From Lachnospiraceae bacterium (lineage in GTDB: Bacteria; Bacillota; Clostridia; Lachnospirales; Lachnospiraceae): 37,253 bases of DNA. The notes beneath the pieces are model-generated. The model made no database searches and was not told the origin of the DNA. It saw only the letters and a program-made list of their open reading frames with translations. This document shows, piece by piece, positions 4,167 through 23,539 of the stretch. A program made the position numbers and the translations under genes. The stretch is taken from positions 1-37,253 of the forward strand of contig JAFUKH010000009.1 in assembly GCA_017467845.1 (NCBI GenBank). The letters are read 5' to 3'. How positions within the stretch are numbered: position 1 is the first letter of the stretch; each line of letters opens with the position of its first letter.

Positions 4167-4388
4167 ACACCGCCTGAGCCAATGGCATTTAGTTTAGAAA
4201 TGGTTCTGTGAGAAAATGATATGTCTTATGAAGACCCTTGAAAAACGTCAGTACTTAGCGAGGTATTTTCGAGCTTAGTACTGCTACGTTTTTCACGGAG
4301 TGAGAACGTGTCTTCATAAGACATATTGTTGTTGAACAGAGACATTTCTAAACTAAATGACATCGTCGCTTTGGCGGTGTTTTTTTTT
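4167..4388. repeat. ~220-bp palindromic element, copy 1 (ends in T-tract)
   Basis: Nested perfect inverted repeats: ACACCGCC (4167-4174) with GGCGGTGT (4373-4380); a 17-bp pair at 4186-4202/4343-4359 (CATTTAGTTTAGAAATG); a 17-bp pair at 4219-4235/4310-4326; and an inner AGTACTTAGC/GCTTAGTACT pair at about 4250-4285. The outer arm runs into nine T, so the whole can work as a terminator for the GtrA operon. A second copy lies at 12203-12425 in the opposite orientation. No protein is encoded. Confidence 0.85.
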
Positions 4389-4396
4389 GCCCAAGT

Positions 4397-4435
4397 TTCA
4401 CAATTTGAACACATTTTTCCCACGAAATGAACACA
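4397..4435 (+). promoter_or_regulatory. Four phased 11-nt direct repeats upstream of the three-adaptor operon
   Basis: The core CAC recurs at 4399, 4410, 4421 and 4432, an exact 11-base period. The best units are TTGAACACATT and ATGAACACAAT, 22 bases apart. The same arrangement occurs at 12424-12462 before the next operon. Direct repeats with an 11-base period are typical of sites bound by OmpR/PhoB-type response regulators. No convincing -10 is visible directly downstream in this copy. Confidence 0.6.
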
Positions 4436-4486: not shown

Positions 4487-5926
4487 ATGAAAAAGAAAAA
4501 AATAATTGTAATAGTAGTGATTGTTATCTTGGCCATAGCTATGGCAGCAGTGAGATTTATTTTCCTGACAAAAGAAAACAAGCCGGAGGATACCGGAGGG
4601 GAAGAATTCTATGCGCAGGCGGAAAGTATGGGTGCCGTGTCGGCAGCATACGGAATCACCAGCATCGGAACCCTGGAAGAGGAATTCCCCATCCAGGGAC
4701 AGAGTACATATTTGGAGGTAGAGGAGACTTATGTGACCTCCGGCGAAGCAGTGACAGCAGATACGAAGCTGCTGAAATTTACTCAGGAATCGCTGGATGC
4801 GCTTTTAGAGGAATTGGAACAGACCGAGAAAGAAGCGTCCCTGGCTTATCGTGCCGGATTGATTGAGTTTGAGCAGGAAAAAATTAATCTGGAGTATGAA
4901 AAAGACAGTGCGATTTTGGCCGGTGAACAGGCAGAGGCAGTTTACGAGGAGACTATATCCGGGCTGTCACAGAGCATGGATATGGCTGAGGAACAACTGA
5001 CGGAAACCAAGGAGCAGATTGCGGATTATCAAGAAAAGATTTCCACCAATTATTATTATAACCAGATGCAGGCGGCGCAGGCTACCTACGATGAAAATCT
5101 GGCTCTTTTAAAGGAGCGCATGGGAGAATGGGGCGTGTCCTGGAGTCAGGTGATTTCCGGTGGTGGCGGAGGTGGAATGCAGATGGGCCGTAGTGTAAGT
5201 GGCGGCGATGTGTACTCCCAATATGTGACAGTGCTGTCGGATTTATACAAGGTATTGGAGTCCAATCTGAAGAATTTGGATGCAGCGAAGGAAGCCTATG
5301 AAGATATGGAGCAAAATGGTCAGTTGGAATTACAGACCCTGCAGCTCAGTCTTCCTTCCCTGGAAAAGACCTATGCAGAGCAGCAGGAAAGCTACGACAG
5401 CAGAGTATTGCAGGCGAAGCTGACCATGGAAACCACTTTAGCCAAGGCAGAGGCCGCGGAGAAAAACTACGAAACGGATTTAGAAAAGGCAGAGTCGGAT
5501 TTTGAAGCATTGGAGGATGCCTATGAAGAAGCGAAGGAGAATCTGGAATGCTTTCACACAAGGGTATCTTCCGGATATTACTATGCTTCTGGGGACGGAG
5601 AGCTGCTTCGCTTTAATGTGCGCAAAGGTCAGACTATTTCCGAGGGCAGTAGAATATATACCATGACCAATCCGGAGAAGATGACGGTTTCCGTATCTGT
5701 GGAGCAGGATAATGTAGCCTCCATAAAAGTAGGAGATACGGTGACGGTGGTAAGCTCTGAAAACGGAATGTTTGAAGGCGTTGTAGAGTCGGTGAATCCG
5801 ATTTCCACATCCTCCAGCCAGAGCAGTGTGACCTACAGTGTACAGGTAGTGATGACCGGAGATTATGAAGCATTATCCAATAATGAGACAGTAACCGTGT
5901 ACTTTGGGATGAAAGGAGAAGAATAA
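4487..5926 (+). CDS. HlyD/MacA-like membrane-fusion adaptor, first of three
   Basis: This 479-residue exported adaptor has an N-terminal membrane anchor (KKKK then about residues 5-27 hydrophobic). A beta-barrel/lipoyl half follows, then a long coiled-coil hairpin rich in Glu/Ala/Gln (about 95-365), and a closing lipoyl and barrel part with the family-like stretch GDGELLRFNVRKGQTISEG. Adaptors of this family bridge a MacB-type permease to outside partners or act as substrate chaperones. A glycine/methionine run (GGGGGGMQMG, near residue 225) sits inside the coiled-coil region. The ATG at 4487 follows GGGAAGGA by 6 bases; the upstream in-frame ATG at 4427 overlaps the phased repeats and is unlikely. 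The stop shares a base with the next start. Confidence 0.88.
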   Translation: MKKKKIIVIVVIVILAIAMAAVRFIFLTKENKPEDTGGEEFYAQAESMGAVSAAYGITSIGTLEEEFPIQGQSTYLEVEETYVTSGEAVTADTKLLKFTQESLDALLEELEQTEKEASLAYRAGLIEFEQEKINLEYEKDSAILAGEQAEAVYEETISGLSQSMDMAEEQLTETKEQIADYQEKISTNYYYNQMQAAQATYDENLALLKERMGEWGVSWSQVISGGGGGGMQMGRSVSGGDVYSQYVTVLSDLYKVLESNLKNLDAAKEAYEDMEQNGQLELQTLQLSLPSLEKTYAEQQESYDSRVLQAKLTMETTLAKAEAAEKNYETDLEKAESDFEALEDAYEEAKENLECFHTRVSSGYYYASGDGELLRFNVRKGQTISEGSRIYTMTNPEKMTVSVSVEQDNVASIKVGDTVTVVSSENGMFEGVVESVNPISTSSSQSSVTYSVQVVMTGDYEALSNNETVTVYFGMKGEE

Positions 5927-7527
5927 TGGCTAAGTTATCTAAGAAAAAACGTAACCGAATATTTATTGTTCTTCTGGCACTTATTTTGGTAGTAGCAGCG
6001 TGTTATACCGCTCTTATTCAGCCTTATCTGGAACGGGACGAGTTGGTATACGAAGAGACGGAAATCTATCAGGATACTCTTACGGTAAGGGTTTCAGAAA
6101 GTGGTTCATTGGGATACGGCTTGCATGAGATTGCTTATGATGTGGACGTTCAGGTATCGGATGCGGAAGAAGAGGAGGATGAGGAAGAGGATGAAGAGGA
6201 GCTGGTGCAGCGTTATCTGGAAATCGAAGAGATACATGTGGCAGCAGGGCAGCAGGTGGAGGCAGGACAGGAGCTTCTGACTTTATCATCCGAGTCTGTG
6301 GAAAGTGTGAGAAAGCTTTTGCAGACAGCACTTGCATCTGCCAAGTCGGACTATGCAGATGCAGAGGATGAATACAACCTGGCAGTGATTGATGTAGAGA
6401 TTACCAATGAAATCACGGAAAACGCCGGTAAATATGCAGAGACAATTTATACAAAGGGTAAGCAGAGTATTATAAATGAGATTACTTCCATGGAGCTGGA
6501 GATTACCGACCGTATCGGTAACAGAGAGGCTTTGAATGAAGCTATGGCAGAGGCTCAGGAGGATTATGGGGAGGCGAAAAAGACTTATGATGAAGTAAAG
6601 GCCTCCTATGAAGCCTATTATTCTCCGGACAATGCAGCCAATTTTATGGTGGGATTACAGGAATTCCTAAATGCCCAGAGTACATATGAGAGAGCTCTTT
6701 CTGCAGTGGAATCCGCACAGAAAAGTATTGATGATAATGAGAGCGCAATTGAAAGTCTTCAAACGGCGGTAAAGGCAGCCAAAGCGGTGAAGAATATCGC
6801 ACTCCTGGAGAATGAGCAGACCTATGTGGAAGACACTATGAACAGTGAAAATGCGGATTTGGTATATCAGGCAACCTTGGAGAGCTTGGAAAGTGACTTA
6901 CAGGAAGCGGAAGAAGAGAAGCTTTTGATGGAGGAGAAGTTGGCAGCTTTTGAAGAACTGGTGGGCGAGGACGGCGTGCTTCGTGCTCCGGAAAGCGGAA
7001 TGATTACTTCCGTGTCTTATGAAGAAGGGGATACACTGGAAAAGGTGGGAACGCTTTTCTATTACACCACGGCAGAGGATATGACCATTTCCGTGGATGT
7101 AACACAGGAGGATATAGTGGCTTTAGAAGTGGGAGATGATGTGGAGATTATCTTTAATGCCTACGAAGACCAGATTTTCACAGGGCAGATTGCAAGTATT
7201 GATACTACTGCAACATCCGCAGAGACACCTACGGTCAGCTACAGTGTAGTCGTTGATGTAGATGGTAATCTGGACCAGCTTTACGGTGGTATGACCGCCA
7301 AGATTAATTTTGTGGTGGCAAACAGTGAGAATACCTTGTATATATCCCGTAAGGCATTGGTGTCCGAAAACGGTAAGTATTATGTATACAAAAAGAGCGG
7401 TCTTGCCGGAAAAGAGCTGGCAGAGGTGGAGATTGGACTGAAAAATGAAAGCTACGTGGAAATACTATCAGGTTTATCCCCGGAGGATACCATATATGTA
7501 GCGACTTCGGTAAGTGGAGCAAATTAA
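5926..7527 (+). CDS. HlyD/MacA-like membrane-fusion adaptor, second of three
   Basis: 533 residues: a membrane anchor (about 11-28); a lipoyl-like segment interrupted near residues 80-93 by an almost purely acidic run (EEEEDEEEDEEE); a long coiled-coil hairpin (about 125-340); then LRAPESGMITSVSYEEGD, the second lipoyl half; and a C-terminal barrel plus membrane-proximal domain ending in LSPEDTIYVATSVSG. This longer layout is that of MacA/YknX-type adaptors that pair with MacB-like permeases. The acidic insertion could bind cations or basic substrates; that is inference. It is translationally coupled to the first adaptor (TAATG overlap) and followed almost directly by the third. Confidence 0.9.
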   Translation: MAKLSKKKRNRIFIVLLALILVVAACYTALIQPYLERDELVYEETEIYQDTLTVRVSESGSLGYGLHEIAYDVDVQVSDAEEEEDEEEDEEELVQRYLEIEEIHVAAGQQVEAGQELLTLSSESVESVRKLLQTALASAKSDYADAEDEYNLAVIDVEITNEITENAGKYAETIYTKGKQSIINEITSMELEITDRIGNREALNEAMAEAQEDYGEAKKTYDEVKASYEAYYSPDNAANFMVGLQEFLNAQSTYERALSAVESAQKSIDDNESAIESLQTAVKAAKAVKNIALLENEQTYVEDTMNSENADLVYQATLESLESDLQEAEEEKLLMEEKLAAFEELVGEDGVLRAPESGMITSVSYEEGDTLEKVGTLFYYTTAEDMTISVDVTQEDIVALEVGDDVEIIFNAYEDQIFTGQIASIDTTATSAETPTVSYSVVVDVDGNLDQLYGGMTAKINFVVANSENTLYISRKALVSENGKYYVYKKSGLAGKELAEVEIGLKNESYVEILSGLSPEDTIYVATSVSGAN

Positions 7528-7528
7528 G

Positions 7529-9205
7529 ATGAAAAAGAAAACAATTATAATCGGCGGAGTAGCCATAGCAGCATGCCTGACGGCAGGGCTGATATTTGGG
7601 GGCTTTGAAACAGAAGAGACCACCTACCGAGAGGTGGCTGTAGAATATGGAACGCTGGTGGTAGGCATCACGGAAAGCGGTGCTGTGGACATCGGAACGG
7701 TGGATCAGATTTTTGAACTGGATATGAGTGCGCTGCAGAGAGTGACTACGGAAAATGGTTCCTCATCAGGAAGCAGCAACATGGGTAATGCTATGGGTGG
7801 TGGAACGCCCGGTGGTGGAGCTGGTGCAGGAATGGATATGTTCAGCCAGATTTTCAATATGGCGGGCGACAATTCTGCTACCCAGGAAAGCAGTGATTCC
7901 CAGCTGATCATCGGGGAAGTATGTGTGGCAATCGGTCAGCAGGTACAGGAAGGGGATACGCTATATATTCTTGAGGAAAGCGGTGTAAATGAGCTTACTC
8001 AGGAGCTTTCCGGCAATGTGGATTTAGCAAAGACTGATTTAGATGCTCTGATTGCGGATCAGGAGCTTTCTAAGAAAATTGCAGAGTATACATATGAAAT
8101 CAGCACTGAATACGGAGACTATGCAGAAACGGAAAGAAGTCTTACCATACAGCAGCTACAGGATGCAGTTACAGAGAAGCAAGAGCTGCTGACCGCCGCA
8201 AAAGAGACCTTAGCAACCTATCAGGAGAATTTATCCCAGGCCAAAAGCGATTTAGAAAAGGCAGAAGCTGCACTGGAAGCTCTTGAATGGAGTAGAGATA
8301 ATACAAACAAAGACACAGAGCTGTATTTATATACCCAGTATTTTACCGATGCGGAGGAATATCAAAGTGTAGTGGATACATTGTTGCAGAAGGTAGAGCA
8401 GCTGGAGGAGAATATTTCCCGTGCGGAAAGTAATGTGGAAAGCTATGAGCAGGAGATTGCAAGCGCAAAGAGGGAACTGGCTTCCGGGCAGCTGAGTGCG
8501 GAGAATACCTATGAGCTGCGTGTGCTTGCATATGAAAATGCTCAGGAAACCTATGATATTACTCTGGCATACCTGGAGGAGGATTTGCTTGCGCAGCAGG
8601 AAGTATATGAGGAAGCAGAGAGCAAATGGGCGGAATTTTCTTCCCACATCTCCGGAAATGAAGTGCAGGCAAAGTACAACGGTGTTATTACCAGTGTAGG
8701 TCTTGCCCAGGGCGACAGCCTGACTACCGGAGCAACGGTGGTGACGCTGTATGATGCAGAGGATGTGTCCATGACCGTTTCTCTGGAAGAGGAGGATATG
8801 ACAGCTATTCAAGTGGGTGGCATGGCCAATATTACTTTTACTGCATATCCTGAGACTGTATATAAAGCGGAGATTACAGAGATTTCCGATGGAGAAACGG
8901 ATTCCTCCGGAACCACCACCTACGATGTGACGGTTACTTTACAGGGAGATGTATCCGGTCTTTTCCAGGGAATGACCGGTGAGATTACCTTTATCACTAA
9001 GGAAAGTAAGGAAGTACTCCATGTATCTAACCGTGCCATTATCCGTGACGGTAAGAAGTCCTATGTAAAGGTGAAAGATGCTTCCGGCAACGTAAAAAAG
9101 GTAGAGGTTGTGACCGGTTTCTCGGATGGCGTATCTGTAGAAATTATCGATGGATTGCAGGAGGGGGACATCGTATTGGTAGAAAGTAAGGTGAGTGAAT
9201 CATGA
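7529..9205 (+). CDS. HlyD/MacA-like membrane-fusion adaptor, third of three
   Basis: 558 residues with a membrane anchor (about 4-22), the lipoyl/coiled-coil/lipoyl/barrel plan of MacA-type adaptors, and a C-terminal domain (LHVSNRAIIRDGKKSYVKV then VEIIDGLQEGDIVLVES). A Ser/Gly/Met-rich insertion (about residues 77-115, with SNMGNAMGGG and MDMFSQIFNM) splits the N-terminal lipoyl part. I use the ATG at 7529, which follows GGAG by about 10 bases; the in-frame GTG at 7514 lies inside the previous gene. The gene ends in an ATGA overlap with the permease, so production of the two is coupled. Confidence 0.9.
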   Translation: MKKKTIIIGGVAIAACLTAGLIFGGFETEETTYREVAVEYGTLVVGITESGAVDIGTVDQIFELDMSALQRVTTENGSSSGSSNMGNAMGGGTPGGGAGAGMDMFSQIFNMAGDNSATQESSDSQLIIGEVCVAIGQQVQEGDTLYILEESGVNELTQELSGNVDLAKTDLDALIADQELSKKIAEYTYEISTEYGDYAETERSLTIQQLQDAVTEKQELLTAAKETLATYQENLSQAKSDLEKAEAALEALEWSRDNTNKDTELYLYTQYFTDAEEYQSVVDTLLQKVEQLEENISRAESNVESYEQEIASAKRELASGQLSAENTYELRVLAYENAQETYDITLAYLEEDLLAQQEVYEEAESKWAEFSSHISGNEVQAKYNGVITSVGLAQGDSLTTGATVVTLYDAEDVSMTVSLEEEDMTAIQVGGMANITFTAYPETVYKAEITEISDGETDSSGTTTYDVTVTLQGDVSGLFQGMTGEITFITKESKEVLHVSNRAIIRDGKKSYVKVKDASGNVKKVEVVTGFSDGVSVEIIDGLQEGDIVLVESKVSES

Positions 9206-10623
9206 GACTATCCGAAATTTTTAGATTAGTATGGTTAAACCTTTCCCAGAATAAATTTAAGGTAATTCTCACTTCCATCGGTATCGTGGTGGGCTGTGCC
9301 ACTATTATGATGGTAATTGCAATCGGTACAGGCGGTAAGATGGAGGTTGCGGAGCAGTTTAAGAACCTGAATGCAGGTGCCATTGATATCAGCTTCGAGG
9401 GAGGCAATCGTGGCAGCGTAGGCTTTGGTGGCAGAGGAGACAGCTCTGAACGTGGCGGTGGCTTTAGTGCACCGGATATGAGTAATATGCCAAGTATGGA
9501 CTATGGAGGCGGAATGCCGAATATGGATTTGGGCGGAGAGATGCCAAGTATGAGTTTCGGAGGAGAGGGTATGCCTGACTTCGGCGGTATGTTTGGTGAC
9601 TTCGGCGGAGGCGGCAGAGGCGATGGCGGAGATGACCGTATGAATCAGGAAAGCGTTACCCTTACCGATTCTGATAGAGAAGATTTGGAGATTTTTGTGC
9701 CCGGTGTCAGTGATACTACCATATCTTACTCTACCACTACATCAGTAGAAGGAGGAGAGCTGGAATCTGCCTCCTATTATACCATTGCCGGTGTGCAGGA
9801 GAACTATCTGGAAATCAGTAATCTGACATTGGCGGCAGGCAGCTTTTTGTCAGAAGAGAATAATGACGGGAAAGAAAAGGTCTGCATACTGGGACAGTCT
9901 GTGGCAACAGAGATTTTTGGAGATGCCCAGTCTGCCATGGAGGAGGAAATCTATATAGACGGCAGACCGTATACAGTGGCCGGTGTTCTTCAGGAAATGG
10001 GAACCGTTGCTTCCGGAATCAGTCCGGATACCGCTATTTTTATTCCTTATGATACGGGTATTAAATATATCACCGGAACAAGTATTAGTCCTACAATCAC
10101 TGTTATTGCAGAAGACGTCAATAATATTACGGGTGTTATCGAAAATGTGGAACTGGTTCTTGCAGACAGCTATCCCAATACAGAGTTTACCATTTCTGAT
10201 GCGGGCAGCAAGATGGAAGCGGCAAATGCATCCAATGATACCCTGCAGCTGCTCCTTGTGGCCATGGCAGTGATTGTATTTATCGTTGGCGGTATCGGTA
10301 TTATGAACGTGCTTTTCGTATCGGTAAAAGAGCGTACCAACGAAATCGGTATCCTGAAAGCATTGGGATGCTCAAGAAAGGATATCCTGCTGGAGTTCTT
10401 ACTGGAGGCAGCATGCATAAGTCTGGTAGGTGCGGTAATCGGCGTCCTGTTGGCACTGGGAATTACTCCGGTGGTGGAGCTTTTCTCCGTAAGAGTGGAG
10501 CTGTCGGTGATGGGAGCTGTGCTTTCACTGGTATTCGGTGTCATGACAGGTAGTATCTTCGGCTTCTATCCCGCATACAAGGCGTCCCGATTAGTACCGG
10601 TGGTTGCATTAAATGCAGAGTAG
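9202..10623 (+). CDS. MacB-like ABC transporter permease with Met/Gly-rich insert
   Basis: This 473-residue permease of the MacB/FtsX type has a first transmembrane helix (about 20-42), a large extracellular domain, then three helices (about 345-368, 395-420, 432-460). MNVLFVSVKERTNEIGILKA and the closing FGFYPAYKASRLVPVVAL segment are typical of the family. Between the first helix and the periplasmic-type core lies an extra insert (about residues 67-152) of Gly, Met, Asp and Pro with short irregular repeats such as MPSMDYGGG, MPNMDLGGE and MPSMSFGGE. It lacks an ATPase domain; the ATPase is encoded at 11540. MacB-like pumps in Firmicutes export peptides, toxins or envelope lipids; the cargo here is unknown. 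Confidence 0.92.
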   Translation: MRLSEIFRLVWLNLSQNKFKVILTSIGIVVGCATIMMVIAIGTGGKMEVAEQFKNLNAGAIDISFEGGNRGSVGFGGRGDSSERGGGFSAPDMSNMPSMDYGGGMPNMDLGGEMPSMSFGGEGMPDFGGMFGDFGGGGRGDGGDDRMNQESVTLTDSDREDLEIFVPGVSDTTISYSTTTSVEGGELESASYYTIAGVQENYLEISNLTLAAGSFLSEENNDGKEKVCILGQSVATEIFGDAQSAMEEEIYIDGRPYTVAGVLQEMGTVASGISPDTAIFIPYDTGIKYITGTSISPTITVIAEDVNNITGVIENVELVLADSYPNTEFTISDAGSKMEAANASNDTLQLLLVAMAVIVFIVGGIGIMNVLFVSVKERTNEIGILKALGCSRKDILLEFLLEAACISLVGAVIGVLLALGITPVVELFSVRVELSVMGAVLSLVFGVMTGSIFGFYPAYKASRLVPVVALNAE

Positions 10624-10650
10624 TTTGCAGGTGTTTGAAAGGAATATGAA

Positions 10651-11526
10651 ATGGCAAATGTAGATATGGAATTTGATGAAAAGACCATGATTCGGGAGCA
10701 GGAGCGCCTGGAAAAAGAGAAGAAGAGGAAAAAACATAAAAAGATTCGAAGAATCATTTTCCTGGTGGTGCTTTTGGTAATCTGTGTGGTAATCGGTTTT
10801 CTGCTATGGCGAAGCAAAACGGCCGGGCAGGAGGAGGCTACGGTGGAGGTAGTGACCCAGGCCGGACAGGAGATTGTGATTGCAAAGATTTCCCAGATTA
10901 ACGGGAATGAAATCACCTATGTAGTAGGTGAAGAAAGTCAGCAGAATCCGGGGCGTAGCGGTGAAAGACCGGAGCGTGGCGAAGCACCGGAGGGTGGTGA
11001 AATGCCTGACATGGGAAGCGTACCCGAGGGAATGGAAATGCCCGACATGGGAAGTATGCCTGAGGGAATGGAAATGCCCGACATGGGAAGTATACCTGAG
11101 GGAATGGAAATGCCTGATATGGGAAGTATGCCTGAGGGAATGGAAATGCCTGATATGGGAAGTATGCCCGAGGAAATGGAGATGCCCGATATGAGTGATA
11201 TGTCGCAGGGCAGAGGCCAGGGAAGAGGACAAGGCGGAGAACAATCCCGGACCGGTACTCAGGGTCAGAACCGCGGAGAAGGGCAAGGTGGCCGTGGCGA
11301 GAACATGGCAGCCGTCGCTGCAGAGGATGGCATCACCTATGATGGTGTACTCTACAAGATGGGGGAAGAAAGCTTTACCACTTATATTCCGGTGGGAACC
11401 GTGGTGACTACTAAGCTTGGTACTGAGACAACCTTCTCCAGACTGGCAGCAGGTGATTATGTTGCACTGGTGGTAGATGGTCAGGGTGATGAGCAGGTAA
11501 TCATGGCAGTTTATATTATCGGTTAG
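10651..11526 (+). CDS. Membrane-anchored protein with 12-residue Met-rich tandem repeats
   Basis: 291 residues: a charged cytosolic head (EKEKKRKKHKKIRR), one transmembrane helix (about 35-53), and an outside part. The outside part begins QEIVIAKISQINGNEITYVV, then a low-complexity zone (about 95-222), then a C-terminal domain with TTYIPVGTVVTTKLG and LAAGDYVALVVDG. The N- and C-terminal outside segments together look like a DUF5666-type small beta domain split by the repeats (inference). The zone holds five full and one partial copy of EMPDMGSMPEGM, then a Gly/Arg/Gln tail. Its place between permease and ATPase genes argues for a structural or substrate-handling role. Possible metal binding by the methionines is untested. 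Confidence 0.8.
   Translation: MANVDMEFDEKTMIREQERLEKEKKRKKHKKIRRIIFLVVLLVICVVIGFLLWRSKTAGQEEATVEVVTQAGQEIVIAKISQINGNEITYVVGEESQQNPGRSGERPERGEAPEGGEMPDMGSVPEGMEMPDMGSMPEGMEMPDMGSIPEGMEMPDMGSMPEGMEMPDMGSMPEEMEMPDMSDMSQGRGQGRGQGGEQSRTGTQGQNRGEGQGGRGENMAAVAAEDGITYDGVLYKMGEESFTTYIPVGTVVTTKLGTETTFSRLAAGDYVALVVDGQGDEQVIMAVYIIG
10999..11196 (+). repeat. 36-bp tandem coding repeat (five full units plus a partial)
   Basis: Units of 36 bases begin at 10999, 11035, 11071, 11107 and 11143, with a diverging sixth at 11179. Each encodes EMPDMGSxPEGM with x = V, M, I or M. Differences between units are mostly synonymous or conservative (GAC/GAT, CCC/CCT), so the protein repeat seems to be maintained. Confidence 0.9.
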
Positions 11527-11539
11527 GAGGCAATATTTT

Positions 11540-12202
11540 ATGATTCGAATGAAGGATATCAATAAGGGATATATGCTGGGTGAGGAGAAATTGCCTATTT
11601 TAAAGAATATCAATTTCTCTGTAAAGGAAGGAGAGTATGTTGCCATCCTTGGACCCTCCGGCTCCGGAAAAACTACTCTGATGAACATTATCGGTTGTAT
11701 GGATGTGATGGACAGCGGGGAGTATTTTCTGGATGGGATGGCGATTCATTCTACACCGGAAGAGGATTTAACCGAGGTGAGAAATCAGAAAATCGGATTT
11801 ATCTTCCAGAACTACCAGCTGATTCCCACCTATAATGTAATGCAGAATATTACCATGCCCCTGATTATGCGGGGGATGCACCATAAGGAGGCGGAAGAGG
11901 CCTGTATGGAGACCATTAAGCTTTTGGGGCTGGACCATCGTCTGGAGCACAGACCCAGCGAGTTGTCCGGTGGTCAGAAGCAGCGAGTTTCCATTGCCCG
12001 GGCTCTGGTCGGAAAGCCCTCCATCCTTCTTGCGGATGAACCCACGGGAGCCCTTGACCAGAACAGTGGTAAAGATGTACTGAAGCTCTTCCGGGAATTG
12101 AATGAGATGGGCAACACTATCGTAATGATTACCCACGACTTAAATGTAGCCCAATCTGCAAAACGTATTGTACGTATCGTAGACGGCGAACTCTATGAAT
12201 AA
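11540..12202 (+). CDS. MacB/LolD-type ABC transporter ATP-binding protein
   Basis: This 220-residue nucleotide-binding subunit has Walker A GPSGSGKTT (about residues 37-45), the Q-loop FIFQNYQLIPTYNV, the signature LSGGQKQRVSIARAL, Walker B ILLADEPTGALD and the switch histidine in MITHDL. The PTGALD form and the length are typical of the LolD/MacB/YknY group, which energises FtsX-like permeases such as the one at 9202. GGAGG lies upstream of the ATG. It is the last gene of the three-adaptor operon; the palindromic element begins directly after its stop. Confidence 0.96.
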   Translation: MIRMKDINKGYMLGEEKLPILKNINFSVKEGEYVAILGPSGSGKTTLMNIIGCMDVMDSGEYFLDGMAIHSTPEEDLTEVRNQKIGFIFQNYQLIPTYNVMQNITMPLIMRGMHHKEAEEACMETIKLLGLDHRLEHRPSELSGGQKQRVSIARALVGKPSILLADEPTGALDQNSGKDVLKLFRELNEMGNTIVMITHDLNVAQSAKRIVRIVDGELYE

Positions 12203-12425
12203 AAAACGGCTCCTCGGCCACAATGTCATTTAGTTTAGAAATTACTCTGGTCAAAAACGATGTGTTTTATTCTGACACGCTTTCACTCGATGTAAAACGT
12301 AGCAGTACTAAGCTCGAAAATACCTCGCTAAGTACTGACGTTTTTGGGCGGTCTTCATAAAACACATCATTTCCTCCCGGCATAATTTCTAAACTAAATG
12401 ACATTGCTCCTCGGGGGCCGTTTTT
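12203..12425. repeat. ~220-bp palindromic element, copy 2 (inverted relative to copy 1)
   Basis: It has the same plan as 4167-4388: outer arms AAAACGGC/GCCGTTTT, the ATTTAGTTTAGAAAT pair (about 12227-12241 with 12385-12400), a middle GATGTGTTTTAT/ATAAAACACATC pair, and the inner core. The ~50-base core (12294-12345) is the reverse complement of the core of copy 1 (4241-4293), nearly identical. The middle stem differs in sequence from copy 1 but stays paired, so the foldback itself appears to be conserved. The T-rich outer ends allow termination in both directions. Confidence 0.85.
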
Positions 12426-12514: not shown

Positions 12515-13519
12515 ATGATTGAAGTAAGTGGTTTGACGAAAAAATATGGAAATCATAAAGCTGTGGACAATCTTTCCTTCAAGGTAGAAGAGGGACAGAT
12601 TTATGGCTTTTTGGGACCGAACGGAGCAGGTAAGAGTACTACCATGAATATTATTACAGGGTATCTTGCAGCCAGTGAGGGAACCGTACTGATTGACGGG
12701 CATGATGTATTAAAGGAGCCGGAGGAGGCAAAGAAATGTATCGGTTATCTGCCGGAGCTTCCGCCTCTTTACATGGAGATGACCGTCTATGAGTATCTGC
12801 AGTTTGTTGCAGAACTGAAAAAGGTAGAGAAGTCTGCCCGCAAGGAGCAGATTGCAGAAATCATGGAGATGACCGGCATCACGGATATGAAAAATCGTCT
12901 GATTCGCAATCTGTCAAAGGGTTATAAGCAGAGAGTGGGGCTTGCTCAGGCCATTATCGGTTATCCTAAGGTAATCATTTTGGATGAGCCCAGCGTAGGT
13001 CTGGACCCGAAACAGATTATTGAGATGCGTGAGCTGATAAAGAAGCTGGGAGAAAATCATACAGTCATCTTAAGCTCACATATCTTGTCAGAAGTAAGCG
13101 CGGTATGTGACCACATTATGATCATTTCCAAGGGCAAGCTGGTAGCCAGCGAAACCACAGAGAATCTGTCTAAGCTGATGAGTGGTGGAGATGAGCTTTC
13201 CATTACCGTTAAGGGTGATGAAAATGAGGTTAAGGGAGCACTGATTCCTATGGAAGGTGTTTCGGCAGTGGAGATTAGAGCTATTCGCGGGGAGGAAGTG
13301 GACGCTCTTGTAACCGTAGAAAGGGACGCAGATATCCGCGAAGCAGTCTTCTTTAAGCTTGCAGAGAAAAAGATGCCGATTTTATCCATGAGCCTGTCTC
13401 AGAAATCATTGGAGGATATCTTCCTTGAGCTTACCGAAGAACAGTCTGCAGAAGTGGCTCAGGAGGCTGAAACAGAAGTAGTAGTAGAGGAGGAACAGGA
13501 CAATGCCGGCGATTTATAA
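12515..13519 (+). CDS. ABC transporter ATP-binding protein (GldA-like)
   Basis: 334 residues with Walker A GPNGAGKST, signature LSKGYKQRVGLAQAI, Walker B VIILDEPSVGLDP and the switch HIL. It is of the DrrA/GldA/NatA type that serves ABC-2 permeases. After the ATPase core (about residues 1-220) there is an accessory C-terminal domain that ends in an acidic tail (EVVVEEEQDN). AGGGAGG is well placed before the ATG. The 3' end overlaps the permease gene by 17 bases. With the two following genes it makes the common Firmicute set of ATPase, fused GldF/GldG-like permease and DUF4340-like protein. The cargo is not known. Confidence 0.93.
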   Translation: MIEVSGLTKKYGNHKAVDNLSFKVEEGQIYGFLGPNGAGKSTTMNIITGYLAASEGTVLIDGHDVLKEPEEAKKCIGYLPELPPLYMEMTVYEYLQFVAELKKVEKSARKEQIAEIMEMTGITDMKNRLIRNLSKGYKQRVGLAQAIIGYPKVIILDEPSVGLDPKQIIEMRELIKKLGENHTVILSSHILSEVSAVCDHIMIISKGKLVASETTENLSKLMSGGDELSITVKGDENEVKGALIPMEGVSAVEIRAIRGEEVDALVTVERDADIREAVFFKLAEKKMPILSMSLSQKSLEDIFLELTEEQSAEVAQEAETEVVVEEEQDNAGDL

Positions 13520-15605
13520 GAGAGAGTTAAAATCCTATTTTCACTCCTTTATCGGACTTTTGTTTATTGGAGTCAGTTTATTTTTCGTAGGTTTGTATTT
13601 TACCGTATATAACGTAACATATGGTTCCCCATACTTCTCCTACGCAATTTCGTCTGTAATATTTGTATTTTTGATTTCTGTGCCGGTACTGACTATGCGA
13701 ATACTGGCGGAGGAGCGGCACAATAAAACCGACCAGTTGATTTTGACAGCACCGGTTTCCGTAGGAAAGATTGTTCTTGGTAAGTACTTAGCACTTCTTA
13801 CGATCTTCGCGATTCCTACGGTAATTATTTCAGTGTATCCGCTGATTTTAAGCCGCTTTGGTTCTGTACCGTTGACGGAATGCTATCTTGCTATACTGGG
13901 TTACTTCCTGTATGGTGCAGCCTGCCTTGCCATTGGTGTATTGGTTTCTGCAATGACGGAAAGTCAGGTAATTGCAGCAGTTCTTACCTTTGGGGCACTT
14001 TTTCTTGGGTATATGATGTCGTCAATCTGTAGCATCATCTCCTCTACCGGAAATGTGCTTACCGATATTCTCGGTTTATATGATATGTATACGCCCTTTG
14101 CAATGCTCTTAAACGGAACCTTGGATCTGGCGTCCGTAGTATACTTTATTTCCCTGATTGCCATTGCACTTTTCCTGGCAACCCAGGTAATCCAAAAGAG
14201 ACGTTACAGTGTGTCAGTAAAGCACTTTAGTGTGGGCGCTTACAGTACCGTAACTATCGGAATTTTTGTGGCAGCAGTTGTTGTGGTAAATATGATTGTA
14301 GGACAGCTTCCGGCCACCATTACTTCTATTGATGTAACCAGCAATCAGCTCTATTCCATTACGGATCAGACCAAGCAGTTCTTGGATACCTTGGATGAGG
14401 ACATTTCTCTCTATGTGCTGGTAAATGAAGAAGAGCAGGATATGACGCTGGGTCAGACTTTGGAGAGATACGACGATTACAGTGACCATATCACCGTAAC
14501 CTATGTGGACCCGGTTTTGAATCCCAAGTTTGCAAGTCAGTATACCAACAGCTCGGTGTACAGTAACAGTATTATTGTTGTTTCCGAGCAGAGAAGTAAG
14601 GTTGTAAGCTATGCAGATATCTATGAATCCAGCTATGATTATACCACCTATCAGTCCACTACCACCGGATATGACGGGGAAGGTCAGATTACCAGTGCGC
14701 TGGATTATGTGACTAGTGATGATATTCCCAAGGTATATCTGACCCAGGGGCATGGAGAAAGTTCCTTTTCGTACACCTTGAACGGTACCCTGGAAAAAGG
14801 CAATGTGGAGACTGCGGAACTGAATCTTATGGATGTGGAAGCGGTTCCTGAGGATGCGGCATGTGTGGTAATCCATGCTCCACAGAACGATTTTAGCAGT
14901 GATGACAAGGACAAAATTATTTCTTATCTTGATCAGGGCGGAAGTGTTATCTTTGTTGGTGGCGGCACGGAGACTCCTTTAACAAATTGCGAAGAAATTC
15001 TTGCATATATGAATCTGACCATGACCGACGGATTTGTGGTGGAGGATAGTGCAGACCATTATTATCAGGTACCGTTCTATTTGCTTCCGGAGGTAGAATC
15101 TCATTCCTATAGTAACGGAATCTATGGCAACTATTATGTTTTTGCACCATATGCAAATGGTTTGATTGTACCGGAAGATAGTGAGACCATCACCTATGAA
15201 AGCATCTTAACAACCTCCGACTCAGCATATGCGAAGCCATATACCAGCGAGTCCTATGAAAAGGAAGAGGGAGATGCGGAAGGACCATTCTCTATCGGTG
15301 TGCAGGCAGTGAAGACCTTGGAAGAGGGAGAGGCTACCTTAGTGGCATTCTCATGCAGCCAGATATTTACCGATAGCGCCAGTGAGATGGTAGGTGGTTC
15401 TAATCAGCAGTTAATTGTGAATGTTATCAGCAGTTTTGCAGGTCATGAAGTAAACGTATCCATTCCTGTGAAGAGCTTTGAGGTATCTTATCTGACCTTA
15501 AGCCAATCGGATATCGTACTTCTCACTTTTGTGACCACTATTTTACTTCCTGTGGCTTGCCTTGTGATAGGCTTTGTCATCTGGTTTAAGCGCAGAAGAA
15601 AGTAG
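13503..15605 (+). CDS. Fused GldF/GldG-like ABC-2 permease
   Basis: 700 residues in two parts. Residues 1-230 form an ABC-2 permease with about six helices; it starts AIYKRELKSYFHSFIGLLF and has RILAEERHNKTDQLILTAPV, the GldF/NosY-like loop. Residues from about 245 have one more helix and then a large outside region (SIDVTSNQLYSITDQTKQFL, YLTQGHGESSF, LDQGGSVIFVGGG) like GldG, an auxiliary domain related to a GATase-like fold. A final helix (about 675-695) precedes the basic end KRRRK. In Bacteroidota GldF and GldG are separate gliding-motility proteins; in this lineage the fused form has no known link to gliding. GAGGAGG precedes the ATG. Confidence 0.9.
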   Translation: MPAIYKRELKSYFHSFIGLLFIGVSLFFVGLYFTVYNVTYGSPYFSYAISSVIFVFLISVPVLTMRILAEERHNKTDQLILTAPVSVGKIVLGKYLALLTIFAIPTVIISVYPLILSRFGSVPLTECYLAILGYFLYGAACLAIGVLVSAMTESQVIAAVLTFGALFLGYMMSSICSIISSTGNVLTDILGLYDMYTPFAMLLNGTLDLASVVYFISLIAIALFLATQVIQKRRYSVSVKHFSVGAYSTVTIGIFVAAVVVVNMIVGQLPATITSIDVTSNQLYSITDQTKQFLDTLDEDISLYVLVNEEEQDMTLGQTLERYDDYSDHITVTYVDPVLNPKFASQYTNSSVYSNSIIVVSEQRSKVVSYADIYESSYDYTTYQSTTTGYDGEGQITSALDYVTSDDIPKVYLTQGHGESSFSYTLNGTLEKGNVETAELNLMDVEAVPEDAACVVIHAPQNDFSSDDKDKIISYLDQGGSVIFVGGGTETPLTNCEEILAYMNLTMTDGFVVEDSADHYYQVPFYLLPEVESHSYSNGIYGNYYVFAPYANGLIVPEDSETITYESILTTSDSAYAKPYTSESYEKEEGDAEGPFSIGVQAVKTLEEGEATLVAFSCSQIFTDSASEMVGGSNQQLIVNVISSFAGHEVNVSIPVKSFEVSYLTLSQSDIVLLTFVTTILLPVACLVIGFVIWFKRRRK

Positions 15606-15612
15606 GTGGCTC

Positions 15613-16176
15613 ATGAATAAACAAAAAAAACAATTACTTCTGATGGTTGCACTTCTGGTGGTCCTGGTAGGAGGCTATCTTGGTCTGGTAAAGTACAATG
15701 AATGGAACGAGCAGAAGAAGACAGAACAAGCTCAGAGTCAGGTGATTTATGTTACCCAATTAGAAGAGGGAAGTATCAATAAAATCAGCTACGAATATGA
15801 AGGTGAAACCATCTCCCTTGTGAAGGATGGGGAGACCTGGGTGAGTGAAAGTGACACCACTCTGGCAATCGTGCAGAGCACCGTAGAGACCATGGCGGAG
15901 AGAATGGCGGAAATTCAGGCTGACCTGACAATTTCCGATGCTACGGACAAGGAGCAGTATGGTCTTGGAGAAGGTGCAAGAAAAGTAACCTTTTCCACAG
16001 CGGATACTACTTATACCTTCTTTATCGGTGATTACAACAGTACTTCATCTGTTTACTATTGGGGTAATGATATTGACAACACCGTATACGTGGTAGGCGG
16101 CGAAAATGTAACCTGCTTTAATTACGGACTGGAAGATTTAATTGAAGAAGCAGAAGAGAGTACTTCTGCGGAGTAA
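15613..16176 (+). CDS. DUF4340-like exported protein (short form)
   Basis: 187 residues with an N-terminal signal anchor (KKQLLLMVALLVVLVGGYLG) followed by an outside domain with INKISYEYEGETISLVKDGE and EQYGLGEGARKVTFSTAD, resembling the DUF4340 repeat domain that follows GldG-like genes. Longer relatives contain more than one such domain; this one has about one. The ATG at 15613 follows GTAGGTGG and lies 7 bases after the permease stop. A strong terminator follows. It probably forms a surface complex with the outside domain of the permease (inference from context). Confidence 0.82.
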   Translation: MNKQKKQLLLMVALLVVLVGGYLGLVKYNEWNEQKKTEQAQSQVIYVTQLEEGSINKISYEYEGETISLVKDGETWVSESDTTLAIVQSTVETMAERMAEIQADLTISDATDKEQYGLGEGARKVTFSTADTTYTFFIGDYNSTSSVYYWGNDIDNTVYVVGGENVTCFNYGLEDLIEEAEESTSAE

Positions 16177-16323: not shown

Positions 16324-16887
16324 ATGAATATAGGAAAAAACTTGTATGAACTGAGAAAGAAGAATGCAATCACACAGGAGGCATTGGCGTTCGAGATGGG
16401 AGTTTCTGTGGCGGCTGTGTCTAAGTGGGAAAATGACAAAGCGCTTCCGGACATTATAATGCTGTGTCAGCTGGCAGATTTTTATCAGGTTACTACCGAT
16501 GAGCTGCTGGGAAGAACGAAAAAGCAGGAGTATATTGTATGTGATGATGCGCCGATTATCTTGAGATGTATGAAGGATATTCTGGAAAAGGAAGGCTTCC
16601 ATAATACCAGAACTGCCAATAAGGGTACAGTGCTTATGGAGATGATAGAGGAGAAAATGCCCTACGGAATATTCTTGGATATCGGTCTTCCGGATGTAAA
16701 CGGATTGGATATTCTGAAAGAGATTAAGAAAGAGTATCCGGAGGTAAAGGTAATCATGCTGACAGCAGATGATACGGAGAAATCAAAGAATATTGCCATT
16801 TCTTATGGGGCGGATATGTATATTACTAAGCCCTTTCTCCCGGAGCATATTCAGATGGCTTTGAAGACGTTGACGAAGAGCGTGTAA
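16324..16887 (+). CDS. XRE helix-turn-helix fused to a response-regulator receiver domain
   Basis: 187 residues. Residues 1-63 are an XRE HTH (ITQEALAFEMGVSVAAVSKW). Residues 68-187 are a receiver domain with the acidic pair D74/D75 (IVCDDAPII), phospho-acceptor D119 (GIFLDIGLPDVNG), T147 (IMLTAD) and K169 (YITKPF), so all residues needed for phosphorylation are present. The output domain is N-terminal, the reverse of most response regulators, and no histidine kinase gene is in the window. GAGAGGG precedes the ATG. It follows the Gld-type operon but has a terminator between. A role in controlling the neighbouring ABC operons is possible but unproven. Confidence 0.92.
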   Translation: MNIGKNLYELRKKNAITQEALAFEMGVSVAAVSKWENDKALPDIIMLCQLADFYQVTTDELLGRTKKQEYIVCDDAPIILRCMKDILEKEGFHNTRTANKGTVLMEMIEEKMPYGIFLDIGLPDVNGLDILKEIKKEYPEVKVIMLTADDTEKSKNIAISYGADMYITKPFLPEHIQMALKTLTKSV

Positions 16888-21456: not shown

Positions 21457-23539
21457 ATTACTTAAAAACAAAGGTGTGGCTAGCCTGTTAGTAGCCGGAT
21501 TAGCACTGGGTTCTCTGACCGGATGCGGCGGAGAAGCGCAGGAACCAGTGGCATCAGATAGTGTTGTGCAGGATGTAGTAGAGACTTCCGCACCGGCAGA
21601 GTCTGAGCCTGTGGAAAATGCAGAGCCTGTAATTTATCAGGTGGCAGAGCAGAATTACATGCCGACTCTTCCTACCGGAATAGAGCAGGCAGAAATCTAC
21701 GTGGAGCCAATCGAAGGTTTATCTGAGGATTTCATCAAAGGTATGGATATTTCTTCGGTAATCGCACTGGAGCAAAGTGGTGTGAAGTACTACAATGCAG
21801 AGGGTCAGGAGCAGGATTTATTCCAGATTCTGGCAGACTCCGGTGTGAACTATATCCGTGTGCGTGTATGGAATGATCCTTATGATTCAAAGGGCGTGGG
21901 CTACGGCGGCGGTAACTGTGATGTAGAAAAGGCTGCAGAAATCGGTAGACGTGCAGCAGAGTGTGGTATGAAGCTTTTAGTGGATTTCCATTATTCTGAT
22001 TTCTGGGCAGACCCTGCAAAGCAGAAGGCACCTAAGGACTGGGCTCATATGACCTATGACAATAAAGTACAGGCAATGTACGATTGGACAGTAGAAAGTG
22101 TAAATGCTATTTTAGCATCCGGTAGTGATATCGGAATGATTCAGATTGGTAACGAGATTAATAATGGTATGTCCGGTGAGACCGATTGGACCCGTATCAC
22201 CGAGCTACTCGGTCAGGCAAGCAAGGCCATCCGTGATGTCAGCGCAGAGCAGGGAAGAGAGATTCCTATTGCAGTGCATTTCACCAATATTGATAACAAA
22301 AACGGTATCATGAACGTGGCACAGACCTTAGAGGATGCAGGACTTGATTATGATATTTTCGGTGTGTCCTACTACAGCTTCTGGCACGGAACCATGGAGA
22401 ATCTGACCGATGTTCTGACCGAGTTAAATACTCGTTTTGGTAAGCAGACCTGTGTTATGGAGACTTCTTATGCATATACCTTAGAGGATGGTGACGGCTT
22501 CGCCAACAGTGTTTCTGAGGTAGATTTAATTGAAGGTTATGCAGCAACCGTACAGAGTCAGGCAACCAATATCCGAGATGTCATGGCAGCTACTGCGGCA
22601 GCAGGGGATTCTGCTCTGGGTGTATTCTACTGGGAAGGTGCATGGCTTCCGGTAGGACCGGCAACCGCTGACAATTCTGCTATCTGGGAGCAGTATGGTA
22701 GCGGATGGGCATCCAGCACTGCGAAAAAGTACGATCCTGATGATGCAGGCCAGTACTATGGCGGAAGCTCTTGGGATAATCAGGCAATGTTTGACTTTGA
22801 GGGTAAGAAATTACCTTCTTTAGATGTATTTAAGTATGTGAACTACGGTACAGAGTGCGAACCAAAGGTTGATTATGTAGATGGAGTTTCTGCAGAACTT
22901 AATGTAAATGAAGCTGTGGTACTTCCGGAGACCGTGAATGTAGTATTCAATAACAGAGAGTTATCCGGACCGGTAGCAGTTACTTGGAACGAAGAGGATA
23001 TCGCGAAGATTGACACTTCTGTAATGGCAGACCATGTGGTAAGAGGTGAGCTGGAAGACGGCACTCAGGTAACCTGTGATTTAACCATTGCAAAGGTAAA
23101 TTACGTGCAGAACCCAAGCTTTGAAGAGAAGAATACTACTATGTGGAACGTAACCTATGTAGGCGATACCAATCCTACAGACTTCCAGACCAAGAGTGCA
23201 GATGCTATGACAGGTGACGTAAGCTTCCATTTCTGGTCAGAGTCTGAGCAGGATTTCAATATCGAGCAGACCATCTCCGGTCTTAGTGAAGGAAGCTATA
23301 CCTTTACCGCAGCTCTTCAGGGTGGCGATGTAGGAGATGCTGAAATCTACGCTTACGTGAAGGTTGGCGATACCGTATATCAGTCAGATCTTGTAAAGCT
23401 TTCCGGCTGGACTGTATGGCAGAATCCGGAGGTTCGTGATGTAGTGGTTAATGGAGAAGATGTCATCGTAGGTGTACATGTAAAGTGCCAGGCAAAGGGC
23501 TGGGGAACCATGGATGATTTCTATCTGTATAAGCAGTAA
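21443..23539 (+). CDS. GH53 endo-beta-1,4-galactanase lipoprotein
   Basis: 698 residues. A lipoprotein signal ends in LTGC (Cys28), so the enzyme should be tethered outside the membrane. The catalytic domain (about 90-460) shows GMDISSVIALEQSGVKYY, YIRVRVWNDPYD, DFHYSDFWADPAKQ, the acid/base Glu in IQIGNEINNG and the nucleophile Glu in CVMETSYAYT. GH53 enzymes cut beta-1,4-galactan side chains of pectin. Then come an Ig-like Big_4-type domain (about 475-550) and a C-terminal beta-sandwich starting YVQNPSFEE, probably a carbohydrate-binding module; CBM61 is a guess from its usual partnership. The start codon is TTG, set by AGGAGGTG at 21431-21438. Confidence 0.93.
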   Translation: MKFSKLLKNKGVASLLVAGLALGSLTGCGGEAQEPVASDSVVQDVVETSAPAESEPVENAEPVIYQVAEQNYMPTLPTGIEQAEIYVEPIEGLSEDFIKGMDISSVIALEQSGVKYYNAEGQEQDLFQILADSGVNYIRVRVWNDPYDSKGVGYGGGNCDVEKAAEIGRRAAECGMKLLVDFHYSDFWADPAKQKAPKDWAHMTYDNKVQAMYDWTVESVNAILASGSDIGMIQIGNEINNGMSGETDWTRITELLGQASKAIRDVSAEQGREIPIAVHFTNIDNKNGIMNVAQTLEDAGLDYDIFGVSYYSFWHGTMENLTDVLTELNTRFGKQTCVMETSYAYTLEDGDGFANSVSEVDLIEGYAATVQSQATNIRDVMAATAAAGDSALGVFYWEGAWLPVGPATADNSAIWEQYGSGWASSTAKKYDPDDAGQYYGGSSWDNQAMFDFEGKKLPSLDVFKYVNYGTECEPKVDYVDGVSAELNVNEAVVLPETVNVVFNNRELSGPVAVTWNEEDIAKIDTSVMADHVVRGELEDGTQVTCDLTIAKVNYVQNPSFEEKNTTMWNVTYVGDTNPTDFQTKSADAMTGDVSFHFWSESEQDFNIEQTISGLSEGSYTFTAALQGGDVGDAEIYAYVKVGDTVYQSDLVKLSGWTVWQNPEVRDVVVNGEDVIVGVHVKCQAKGWGTMDDFYLYKQ

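Follow-up and report, generated by a model that had tools for sequence, protein, structure and literature searches.

The window analyzed here, a stretch of 37,253 nucleotides from a Lachnospiraceae bacterium (GCA_017467845.1), is one whole contig (JAFUKH010000009.1) of a genome assembly that is 85.8% complete and spans 3.0 Mb in 105 contigs. It carries an ATP-binding cassette (ABC) export operon of six genes, all on the plus strand, which encode, in order, three HlyD/MacA-like adaptors (labeled A1, A2, and A3 in this analysis), a permease, a Met-repeat protein (labeled METP, likewise coined here), and an ATPase (Table 1; L-numbers denote loci and G-numbers genomes). Known Gram-positive relatives such as YknWXYZ are described with one adaptor, as the initial annotation of this DNA had stated in agreement with the consulted parts of the literature (PMC5768738, PMC5985334), and the open-access literature searched yielded no account of an ABC exporter with three adaptors.

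The six-component operon of that annotation was recovered in its genes, coordinates, and tight packing: A1 and A2 overlap by 1 base, A3 and the permease overlap by 4 bases, and the remaining gaps measure 1, 27, and 13 bases. Pfam models HlyD_3 and HlyD_D23 exceed their cut-offs in all three adaptors, as do ABC_tran in the ATPase and, in the permease, MacB_PCD and FtsX, the domain pair of type VII ABC permeases; the TIGR01730 cut-off is exceeded by A2 and A3 and not by A1. NF007826, which describes the fused ATPase-permease of MacB (equivalog cut-off 966 bits), is reached neither by the permease (177.9 bits) nor by the ATPase (229.9 bits), which are separate genes. The three adaptors share pairwise identities of just 24-32% and are therefore not the result of a recent duplication. 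A1 combines an N-terminal hydrophobic helix with a long hairpin and has no membrane-proximal (MP) domain; an alternative in-frame ATG for this gene lies at 4427, and a plausible ribosome-binding site can be seen by eye ahead of 4487. Terminator-like stems, which are consensus matches only, lie just before (4359-4381) and just after (12406-12418) the operon, and promoter-like sites are not in excess in the window (13, compared with 13.2 in shuffles).

Table 1. Features of the export operon in the window, with the evidence for each.
Feature	Positions	Strand	Evidence
A1, first HlyD/MacA-like adaptor, 479 aa	4487-5926	+	HlyD_3 7.9e-9; TIGR01730 39.9 bits, under the 94.9 cut-off
A1 hairpin-tip insert, Gly/Ser-rich, variable	5147-5224	+	at least 20 aa in 50/57 loci
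A2, second adaptor, 533 aa	5926-7527	+	TIGR01730 96.1 bits, over the 94.9 cut-off; MP domain from ~7333
A3, third adaptor, 558 aa	7529-9205	+	TIGR01730 102.3 bits, over the cut-off; MP domain from ~9014
A3 Gly/Ser/Met-rich insert, about residues 76-124	7754-7900	+	at least 20 aa in 56/57 loci
MacB/FtsX-type permease, no fused ATPase, 473 aa	9202-10623	+	MacB_PCD 5.5e-24; FtsX 2.9e-20
Permease Gly/Met/Phe-rich extracytoplasmic insert, repeated G-M-P motif, residues 66-152	9397-9657	+	at least 20 aa in 78/78 loci
METP, membrane-anchored accessory protein, 291 aa	10651-11526	+	homologues in 52/76 named loci having permease and ATPase
36-bp in-frame tandem repeat in METP, (M/P/D/E/G)-rich 12-aa units	10999-11193	+	Tandem Repeats Finder (TRF): 5.4 copies, 91% matches
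LolD/MacB-type ABC ATPase, 220 aa	11540-12202	+	ABC_tran 3.6e-34

Distribution and ancestry of the adaptor trio

Conservation of the operon was assessed in a named collection of one genome per species (84,980 species), which was scanned with two short permease peptide patterns taken from three-adaptor permeases, a choice that biases the resulting set toward three-adaptor loci; of the 167 stretches that matched, 84 were seen to encode a relative, and the counts on named loci use the top 80 of these. Their record titles are mostly those of Lachnospiraceae, including Kineothrix alysoides, Eisenbergiella tayi, Parablautia intestinalis, and Butyrivibrio, and some loci are nearly identical (e.g., L056 and L057). 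The neighborhood search that the initial annotation had suggested, for three HlyD genes beside the permease, revealed A1, A2, and A3 in conserved order at 55 of the 58 loci among these 80 whose sequence reaches 6 kb or more upstream of the permease (A3 of one, L073, being split over two frames); the exceptions have two adaptors (L091 and L109) or one (L112). Contig ends truncate most of the other 22 loci, which retain the right-hand part of the set, all three adaptors still being present in 7, and L089, which seems to be broken by a frameshift or by the assembly, was not scored as a three-adaptor locus. The median intergenic distance in the named loci is -4 bases at each of the three junctions from A1 through the permease, with gaps falling within -60 to +100 bases in 49 of 56 cases for A1-A2 and in 56 of 56 for each of the other two, and the ATPase follows the permease by no more than 2.5 kb in 76 of 79 loci.

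Among 60 relatives searched, an orthologue of the permease is present in 8 same-genus genomes (66-76% identity), together with positional partners of A1 (33-45%) and A2 (40-47%) in 7 genomes each and of A3 (43-52%) in 8; for adaptors on these contigs, the partner in the same position scores far above those in the other two. An A2 profile matched 23 of 397 family genomes (334 genera) at 1e-50, 13 of them at the A2 level (587-745 bits): all three adaptors were identified in the window's genome and in G590, a contig end truncates G690, and ten more are counted by their A2 score. The remaining ten matched genomes comprise two-adaptor loci (G565, G566, G677, G533, G541, G522, and G587, the first of these scoring 444 bits with the A2 profile), one-adaptor loci (G641 and G492), and the contig-cut G629. 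In a phylum-wide sample of 398 genomes, A2 was present in the window's genome only, the next genome reaching 188 bits, and the top three are one-adaptor loci from another family.

The relationship between these forms is apparent from the permease tree (83 rows, of which 75 are ingroup rows, with seven other MacB-like permeases as outgroup), in which one-adaptor loci branch first, followed by eight two-adaptor loci and then by the 61 three-adaptor rows as one clade (99; support here and below is SH-aLRT from quick searches). These rows are the window and 60 of the 62 named three-adaptor loci, L053 and L106 having no usable permease frame. Adaptor number needs two changes on this tree, from one to two to three, as it does in a first tree of 52 rows (31 named three-adaptor loci and the window), and branching among the two-adaptor loci is resolved in part only. 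The window, with three adaptors, departs from the single adaptor of Gram-positive MacAB-like pumps, and its one-adaptor relatives are basal. The ladder omits L173, which lies at a contig edge, L178, in which no adaptor was called and the permease scores 162 bits, and L123, whose permease is truncated by the contig end. L172, whose first adaptor is cut by the contig start, was left out of both trees; the permease of L209 forms a long branch within the outgroup and is uninformative for the ladder.

Each adaptor position likewise forms one clade, both in a tree of 67 rows (A2 100, A3 100, A1 90; L174, with its second adaptor in two frames, and L045, with a long branch, were left out) and in an earlier tree of 26 loci (100, 99, and 99). 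In seven two-adaptor loci the first adaptor groups with A1 (97) and the second with A2 plus A3 (93), so the A1 line and another line arose from the first duplication, and the latter line subsequently split into A2 and A3; read from these sequences, the trio is the product of two successive tandem duplications of one ancestral adaptor. Of the single adaptors, those of L167 and L168 are matched best by the A3 profile, whereas for L175 and L177 the A2 profile has a slight edge. With living one-, two-, and three-adaptor relatives ordered on one tree, the gain of adaptors is open to reconstruction and testing at the level of single genes. Two further observations concern the two-adaptor form: it also occurs on a 243-kb plasmid of Roseburia sp. 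831b (L208, 5711-11953), and L170 has an additional frame between its two adaptors.

The adaptors differ from one another in ways that are consistent across loci. An MP sub-profile matched A2 in 56/57, A3 in 55/57, and A1 in 0/57 loci, although, as the sub-profile was seeded from A2 and A3 of the same loci, only the A1 outcome is a free test. Among the first adaptors of two-adaptor loci (that of L208 lying outside the comparison), the MP domain is present in L109 (48.6 bits), weak in L169 and L171 (23.3 and 17.9 bits), and absent in L091, L166, L170, L172, and L174, the last two being incomplete or oddly framed; given this mixed state, MP loss came after the first duplication. An N-terminal hydrophobic helix is found in 55/57, 55/57, and 57/57 loci for the three positions. 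Measured between sequence anchors chosen by the analyst, the median hairpin arm lengths are 106/108 residues in A3, 112/107 in A2, and 123/120 in A1, with interquartile ranges of 0-2 (extremes: A1 first arm 40-123, second 99-120; A2 first 108-118; A3 second 108-115), and most length variation is held in the A1 tip, at 7-234 residues. A correlation of arm lengths within loci was also sought and proved uninformative because these lengths hardly vary. If each stretch formed one straight hairpin, the arms would measure ~160-185 Å as straight helices, and it is from this arm length that a surface-spanning machine, as described in the initial annotation, may be surmised. Two adaptor frames are unusually long, in L123 (2990-5242, 750 aa) and L174 (9160-12138, 992 aa), and may be fusions or merged hairpins.

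Methionine-rich inserts and the Met-repeat protein

The Met/Gly-rich stretches reported in the initial annotation are present in A3, the permease, and the repeat protein, its "slight" insert in A1 amounting to a short Gly-rich loop with two Met. Across loci (the window counted in each), inserts of at least 20 residues recur as in Table 1 and also in 38/57 A2 C-terminal tails, of which that of the window is just 5 residues long, and in 35/48 METP. Met is enriched 3-7 times in four of the five inserts relative to the rest of the protein (permease 8.5% vs. 2.6%, A3 8.3% vs. 1.2%, A2 tail 6.2% vs. 1.4%, METP 6.6% vs. 2.0%) and hardly in the A1 tip (3.0% vs. 2.3%). The inserts are kept in position and composition, not residue by residue, and among the 55 loci in which those of the permease, A1, A2, and A3 are all readable, the window, itself included, is the richest in insert Met (39, against a median of 14). 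Gly-rich stretches contain 6.3% Met in the cassette; the figure is 1.7% in the remaining frames of these loci and 2.9% in 400 kb sampled from the genome of one relative, a sample whose sole strongly Met/Gly-rich stretch presumably resembles the end of the signal recognition particle protein Ffh.

What these inserts share is a low-complexity Gly-Met-Pro "language" that is conserved among unrelated subunits of one machine. Met-Pro pairs far exceed their numbers in shuffles (permease 162 vs. 25, A2 tail 81 vs. 14, METP 81 vs. 14, A3 12 vs. 2.7), without excess in the A1 insert, and Phe-Pro is enriched alongside Met-Pro in the permease, A2, and METP inserts. At least three copies of the motif [GEDSN][MF]P[GSDEN] occur in 31/78 permeases, 12/57 A2, 10/48 METP, 4/57 A1, and 0/57 A3, and in none of the 712 other frames at these loci, which were called mechanically and include some that are not genes; single copies are unremarkable, numbering 31 per 121,086 residues in a control genome sample and 60 per 231,073 in the other frames. 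The compared region around the permease insert measures 58-87 residues in one-adaptor members, compared with 17-39 in the seven outgroup permeases (of which L040 and L045 have short Met/Gly loops), and the permease insert therefore predates the extra adaptors. An exchange of Met-rich segments between the A2 tail and METP was considered and was not significant (Fisher p 0.23, 56 loci). Outside the cassette proper, the histidine kinase upstream of A1 in L054, L056, and L057 has "MPGGGPEARF" in its sensor part, reminiscent of the Met-Pro motif.

Turning to METP itself, the protein of the window has no Pfam or NCBIfam family over cut-off, and homologues share a conserved core, "GNE...PVGT...LGT.TTFSRL..GD", which is split by the Met-rich insert. 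An N-terminal hydrophobic stretch is present in 46/48 homologues, and lipoprotein-like signals were seen by eye in those of L048, L091, L109, L112, L168, L176, and L208; one named record annotates METP as a "hypothetical protein" and gives the adaptors generic names. Assignments to CusF_Ec (E 0.042) or DUF5666 (E 0.045) were rejected, as both fall below cut-offs and each occurred in 1 of 10 homologues scanned. Neither family was found in the window's genome at 0.001, which says little, as METP itself lies under that level.

Proposed mechanism and competing explanations

Several characterized systems resemble the operon in part. The closest solved chains to the window permease are MacB and the Streptococcus pneumoniae permease 5xu1 (5.4e-31), and the S. 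pneumoniae adaptor 5xu0 is matched at 2.8e-9; the corresponding system, Spr0693-0694-0695, belongs to a cell that has no outer membrane and similarly combines a separate ATPase with a MacB-type permease and a MacA-like adaptor; it differs in its one, homo-hexameric adaptor, with no Met-rich inserts mentioned in the consulted parts of its description (PMC5768738, PMC5985334). According to the same parts, the hexamer of Spr0693 needs its MP domain for ATPase stimulation, loss of the operon lowers the minimum inhibitory concentration of LL-37, and MacA, YknX, and Spr0693 all form homo-hexamers (PMC5768738, PMC5985334). YknWXYZ of Bacillus, as described there, is likewise a MacA/MacB-like set with an extra membrane protein (YknW) and protects against or exports a peptide (SDP), and it differs in having one adaptor. 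E. coli MacAB-TolC shares the MacB_PCD and FtsX permease domains, MacA-like adaptors, and the MP domain of A2 and A3; here, by contrast, the ATPase is unfused, three unlike adaptors are present, no TolC-type partner was found in 18 of 20 genomes, and the hairpin arms are longer (106-123 residues each, ~160 Å or more if straight, vs. a reported MacA stem of 70 Å; PMC5768738, PMC5985334). Aquifex EmrA (4tko), an adaptor of the major facilitator superfamily, is the best solved match of A1 (8.6e-11), and both are without an MP domain, the coiled coil of EmrA being given as 127 Å in the consulted text; in a tree that includes no EmrA, however, A1 shares its descent with first adaptors from MacB-linked loci of the two-adaptor kind, part of which are MP-bearing, and the absence of the MP domain in A1 and EmrA thus looks convergent. 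Precedent for more than one kind of adaptor per pump is offered by TriABC-OpmH of Pseudomonas aeruginosa, in which the unlike adaptors TriA and TriB reportedly split roles on one resistance-nodulation-division (RND) pump (PMC13328181), although that system has two adaptors and is not homologous as a system.

The reading favored here, held with somewhat better than even confidence, is that the operon encodes a MacAB-type (type VII ABC) exporter of Lachnospiraceae whose adaptor tube, a homo-oligomer in previously studied pumps of MacAB type, has probably become hetero-oligomeric through two successive tandem duplications and which moves membrane-active compounds. It would work like the MacAB-like pumps of Gram-positive cells (PMC5768738, PMC5985334). 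A1, A2, and A3 would together build a single tube, seated on two permease and two ATPase subunits. Published descriptions place a homo-hexameric MacA-type tube on a pump that is a dimer, a mismatch of six on two; with a dimeric permease and six adaptor places, three kinds in two copies each, (A1A2A3)x2, would be the simplest stoichiometry and would fit the two-fold MacB dimer better than six identical adaptors. The MP domains of A2 and A3 would dock these adaptors on the permease, and the distal end of the tube would be lengthened by A1, whose arms are 11-17 residues longer and whose tip is disordered. Close to the path of the substrate, the Gly/Met/Phe-rich disordered inserts of the permease, A3, A2 tail, and METP may offer flexible hydrophobic contacts. 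Export would be powered by ATP hydrolysis through mechanotransmission, as in MacB: membrane-active or hydrophobic compounds would be picked up on the outward-facing side of the membrane and passed along the tube into the cell wall or past it. Antimicrobial peptides would be the best cargo precedent, given that LL-37, SDP, and AS-48 are named for MacAB-like Gram-positive pumps in the literature consulted (PMC5768738, PMC5985334), and the two-component systems neighboring some loci would fit an inducible defense role. Taken with the hydrophobic make-up of the inserts, these precedents and neighbors, the latter in a minority of loci, make the cargo class likely by analogy, and a hydrophobic cargo is plausible. 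The proposed architecture bears on the role of adaptors in cells without an outer membrane and offers a natural test case for machines that gain parts.

A number of observations weigh against this reading. METP is missing in 24 of 76 loci and is hence dispensable; fewer-adaptor sets are not rare (13 of the 23 matched family genomes being at the A2 level, 7 two-adaptor, 2 one-adaptor, and 1 cut); the order count of 55/58 comes from a scan biased toward three-adaptor permeases; and the arm lengths of A1 are unequal to those of A2 and A3. A response regulator and histidine kinase lie within three open reading frames at only 15 of the 79 named loci with flanking frames (52 of which have at least three upstream frames), with none directly beside the window's operon; the domains were confirmed in L054, L067, and the two-adaptor L174, and the pair of L209 is known by annotation. 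No cargo gene is conserved beside the operon among frames of at least 100 residues, a size limit that a small peptide gene would escape: besides two-component genes and a frame antisense to the ATPase gene, seen at 12 loci, none of the 612 such flanking frames recurs in more than 6 loci. The hetero-adaptor ring proposed in the initial annotation is well motivated by the kept order, separate clades, and conserved inserts; the mixed ring itself and its 2:2:2 stoichiometry are putative.

A more specific version, put forward tentatively, envisages a fixed-order (A1A2A3)x2 hetero-hexamer that matches the symmetry of the permease dimer, likened to TriA-TriB pairs, which would match a three-fold RND pump. 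Only the four A2 and A3 subunits would touch the permease, the two A1 would be taller, MP-less struts, and Met/Phe-Pro bristles common to the permease, A2, A3, and METP would form a sticky, metal-free passage for hydrophobic peptides. The same tentative version takes the ladder from one to two to three adaptors to be stepwise, with no reversal in the sample.

Among the alternatives, the strongest is a nonadaptive ratchet, in which a heteromeric ring arises by duplication and complementary loss of interfaces without new function; it is credible, if somewhat short of an even chance. All three adaptors would then be needed only because each has lost an interface, as in the ring of the fungal V-ATPase, to which duplication added a subunit. 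A ratchet would account for the stepwise ladder, with two changes among 75 ingroup rows, and for the loss of the A1 MP domain after the first duplication (retained in L109, weak in L169 and L171, none in L091, L166, and L170), and leaves unexplained the longer arms of A1, its disordered tip, and the Met-Pro motif of the other subunits. It is compatible with the architecture of the favored reading and differs from it in cause alone. Rather doubtful, by comparison, is the idea that the machine serves not defense but a surface product of the cell's own (a lipopeptide, polymer, or lipoprotein), which it would secrete or assemble: type VII relatives are stated, in the text consulted, to include LolCDE and FtsEX, and most loci are without a nearby kinase-regulator pair, yet no conserved biosynthetic gene appears among the 612 flanking frames, small precursor genes not having been searched for.

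A further alternative, considered unlikely, is that the adaptors are interchangeable, A1, A2, and A3 each forming its own homo-hexamer and the permease swapping tubes by cargo or condition. The separate N-terminal helices in nearly all loci and the homo-hexameric precedents cited above would suit such an arrangement, but the genes overlap or nearly touch, the trio is kept together within the three-adaptor clade, and A1 is without the MP domain that Spr0693 reportedly needs to stimulate its pump, such that a tube of A1 alone would be expected to couple poorly.

The initial annotation had also entertained a soft-metal-bound cargo, and a Cu/Ag exporter whose Met-rich segments bind and hand on metal is decidedly improbable. 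M-x-x-M spacing exceeds shuffles in the inserts of A3 (22 vs. 13.3), A2 (23 vs. 10.6), and METP (27 vs. 15.4), counts that repeats inflate; the sub-threshold CusF_Ec match of one METP homologue is joined by a CusB-family match of A3, also under cut-off; and a disordered His/Met-rich region of PcoB is described as serving copper efflux. That region, however, has 17 His to 5 Met in the account consulted, and CusF_Ec was not found in the genome at the level given above. The four Met-rich inserts contain 0.0-0.1% His and no Cys (0.0%), which is weakly telling because the whole proteins are poor in both (His 0.1-0.3%, Cys 0.3-0.8%); M-x-M lies below shuffles in the permease and A2 and near them in A3 and METP; Phe-Pro accompanies Met-Pro as noted; and the flanking-frame clusters seen show no recurrent metal gene, no search by name having been made. 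The metal cargo is thus unsupported, although the raised M-x-x-M in three of four inserts and the scarcity of His and Cys throughout the proteins leave it a small probability. Lastly, a chance tandem duplication without meaning, which the initial annotation had named as the finding that would undo its proposal and which has nothing in its favor beyond the adaptors being paralogues, was rejected as extremely improbable: order (55/58), inserts, near-invariant arm lengths, and monophyletic positions in separate clades across species are all conserved.

Genomic surroundings

A tripartite arrangement with a TolC-type OEP protein is not indicated in the window's genome. PF02321 (outer-membrane factor) was sought in 20 system-carrying genomes and one plasmid record, and no match was obtained in 18 of the 20, the window's included; the exceptions are G016 (22.6 bits, inside its A2) and G008 (27.6 bits, in a 1092-aa frame). 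Of the genomes sampled, the contig of G010 carries only A3 onward and nine others are known by A2 and A3 only. The plasmid EAL2_808p of Peptoclostridium acidaminophilum (L209, 2022-8866) carries a one-adaptor MacB-like set with a two-component system; the set adjoins a "TolC family protein" gene, and the plasmid holds PF02321 matches over cut-off. These matches are odd for a bacterium presumed to have no outer membrane.

Two inverted copies of a palindromic repeat of ~200 bp, 82% complementary, flank the operon of the window at 4180-4388 and 12198-12406. The repeat belongs to a family with 47 matches listed in the genome, in 38 distinct places, and may be terminator-linked or resemble a miniature inverted-repeat transposable element (MITE). 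A recent mobile cassette bounded by this repeat was considered and no transfer is claimed, as the repeat is dispersed and the adaptor subtrees and permease tree look alike by eye. Directly downstream are GldA/GldFG-like ABC-2 genes (12515-16176), together with a gene taken to be DUF4340-like, and GldA-like genes lie near the cassette in 5 named loci as well. Small proteins that seem, by eye, to fuse an XRE-type helix-turn-helix to a receiver domain lie downstream of the operon both in the window (16324-16887) and in L065 (12019-12696), and further along, at 18859-23539, the window encodes a protein of right-handed beta-helix/GH28-like type as well as a GH53 galactanase whose start resembles that of a lipoprotein.

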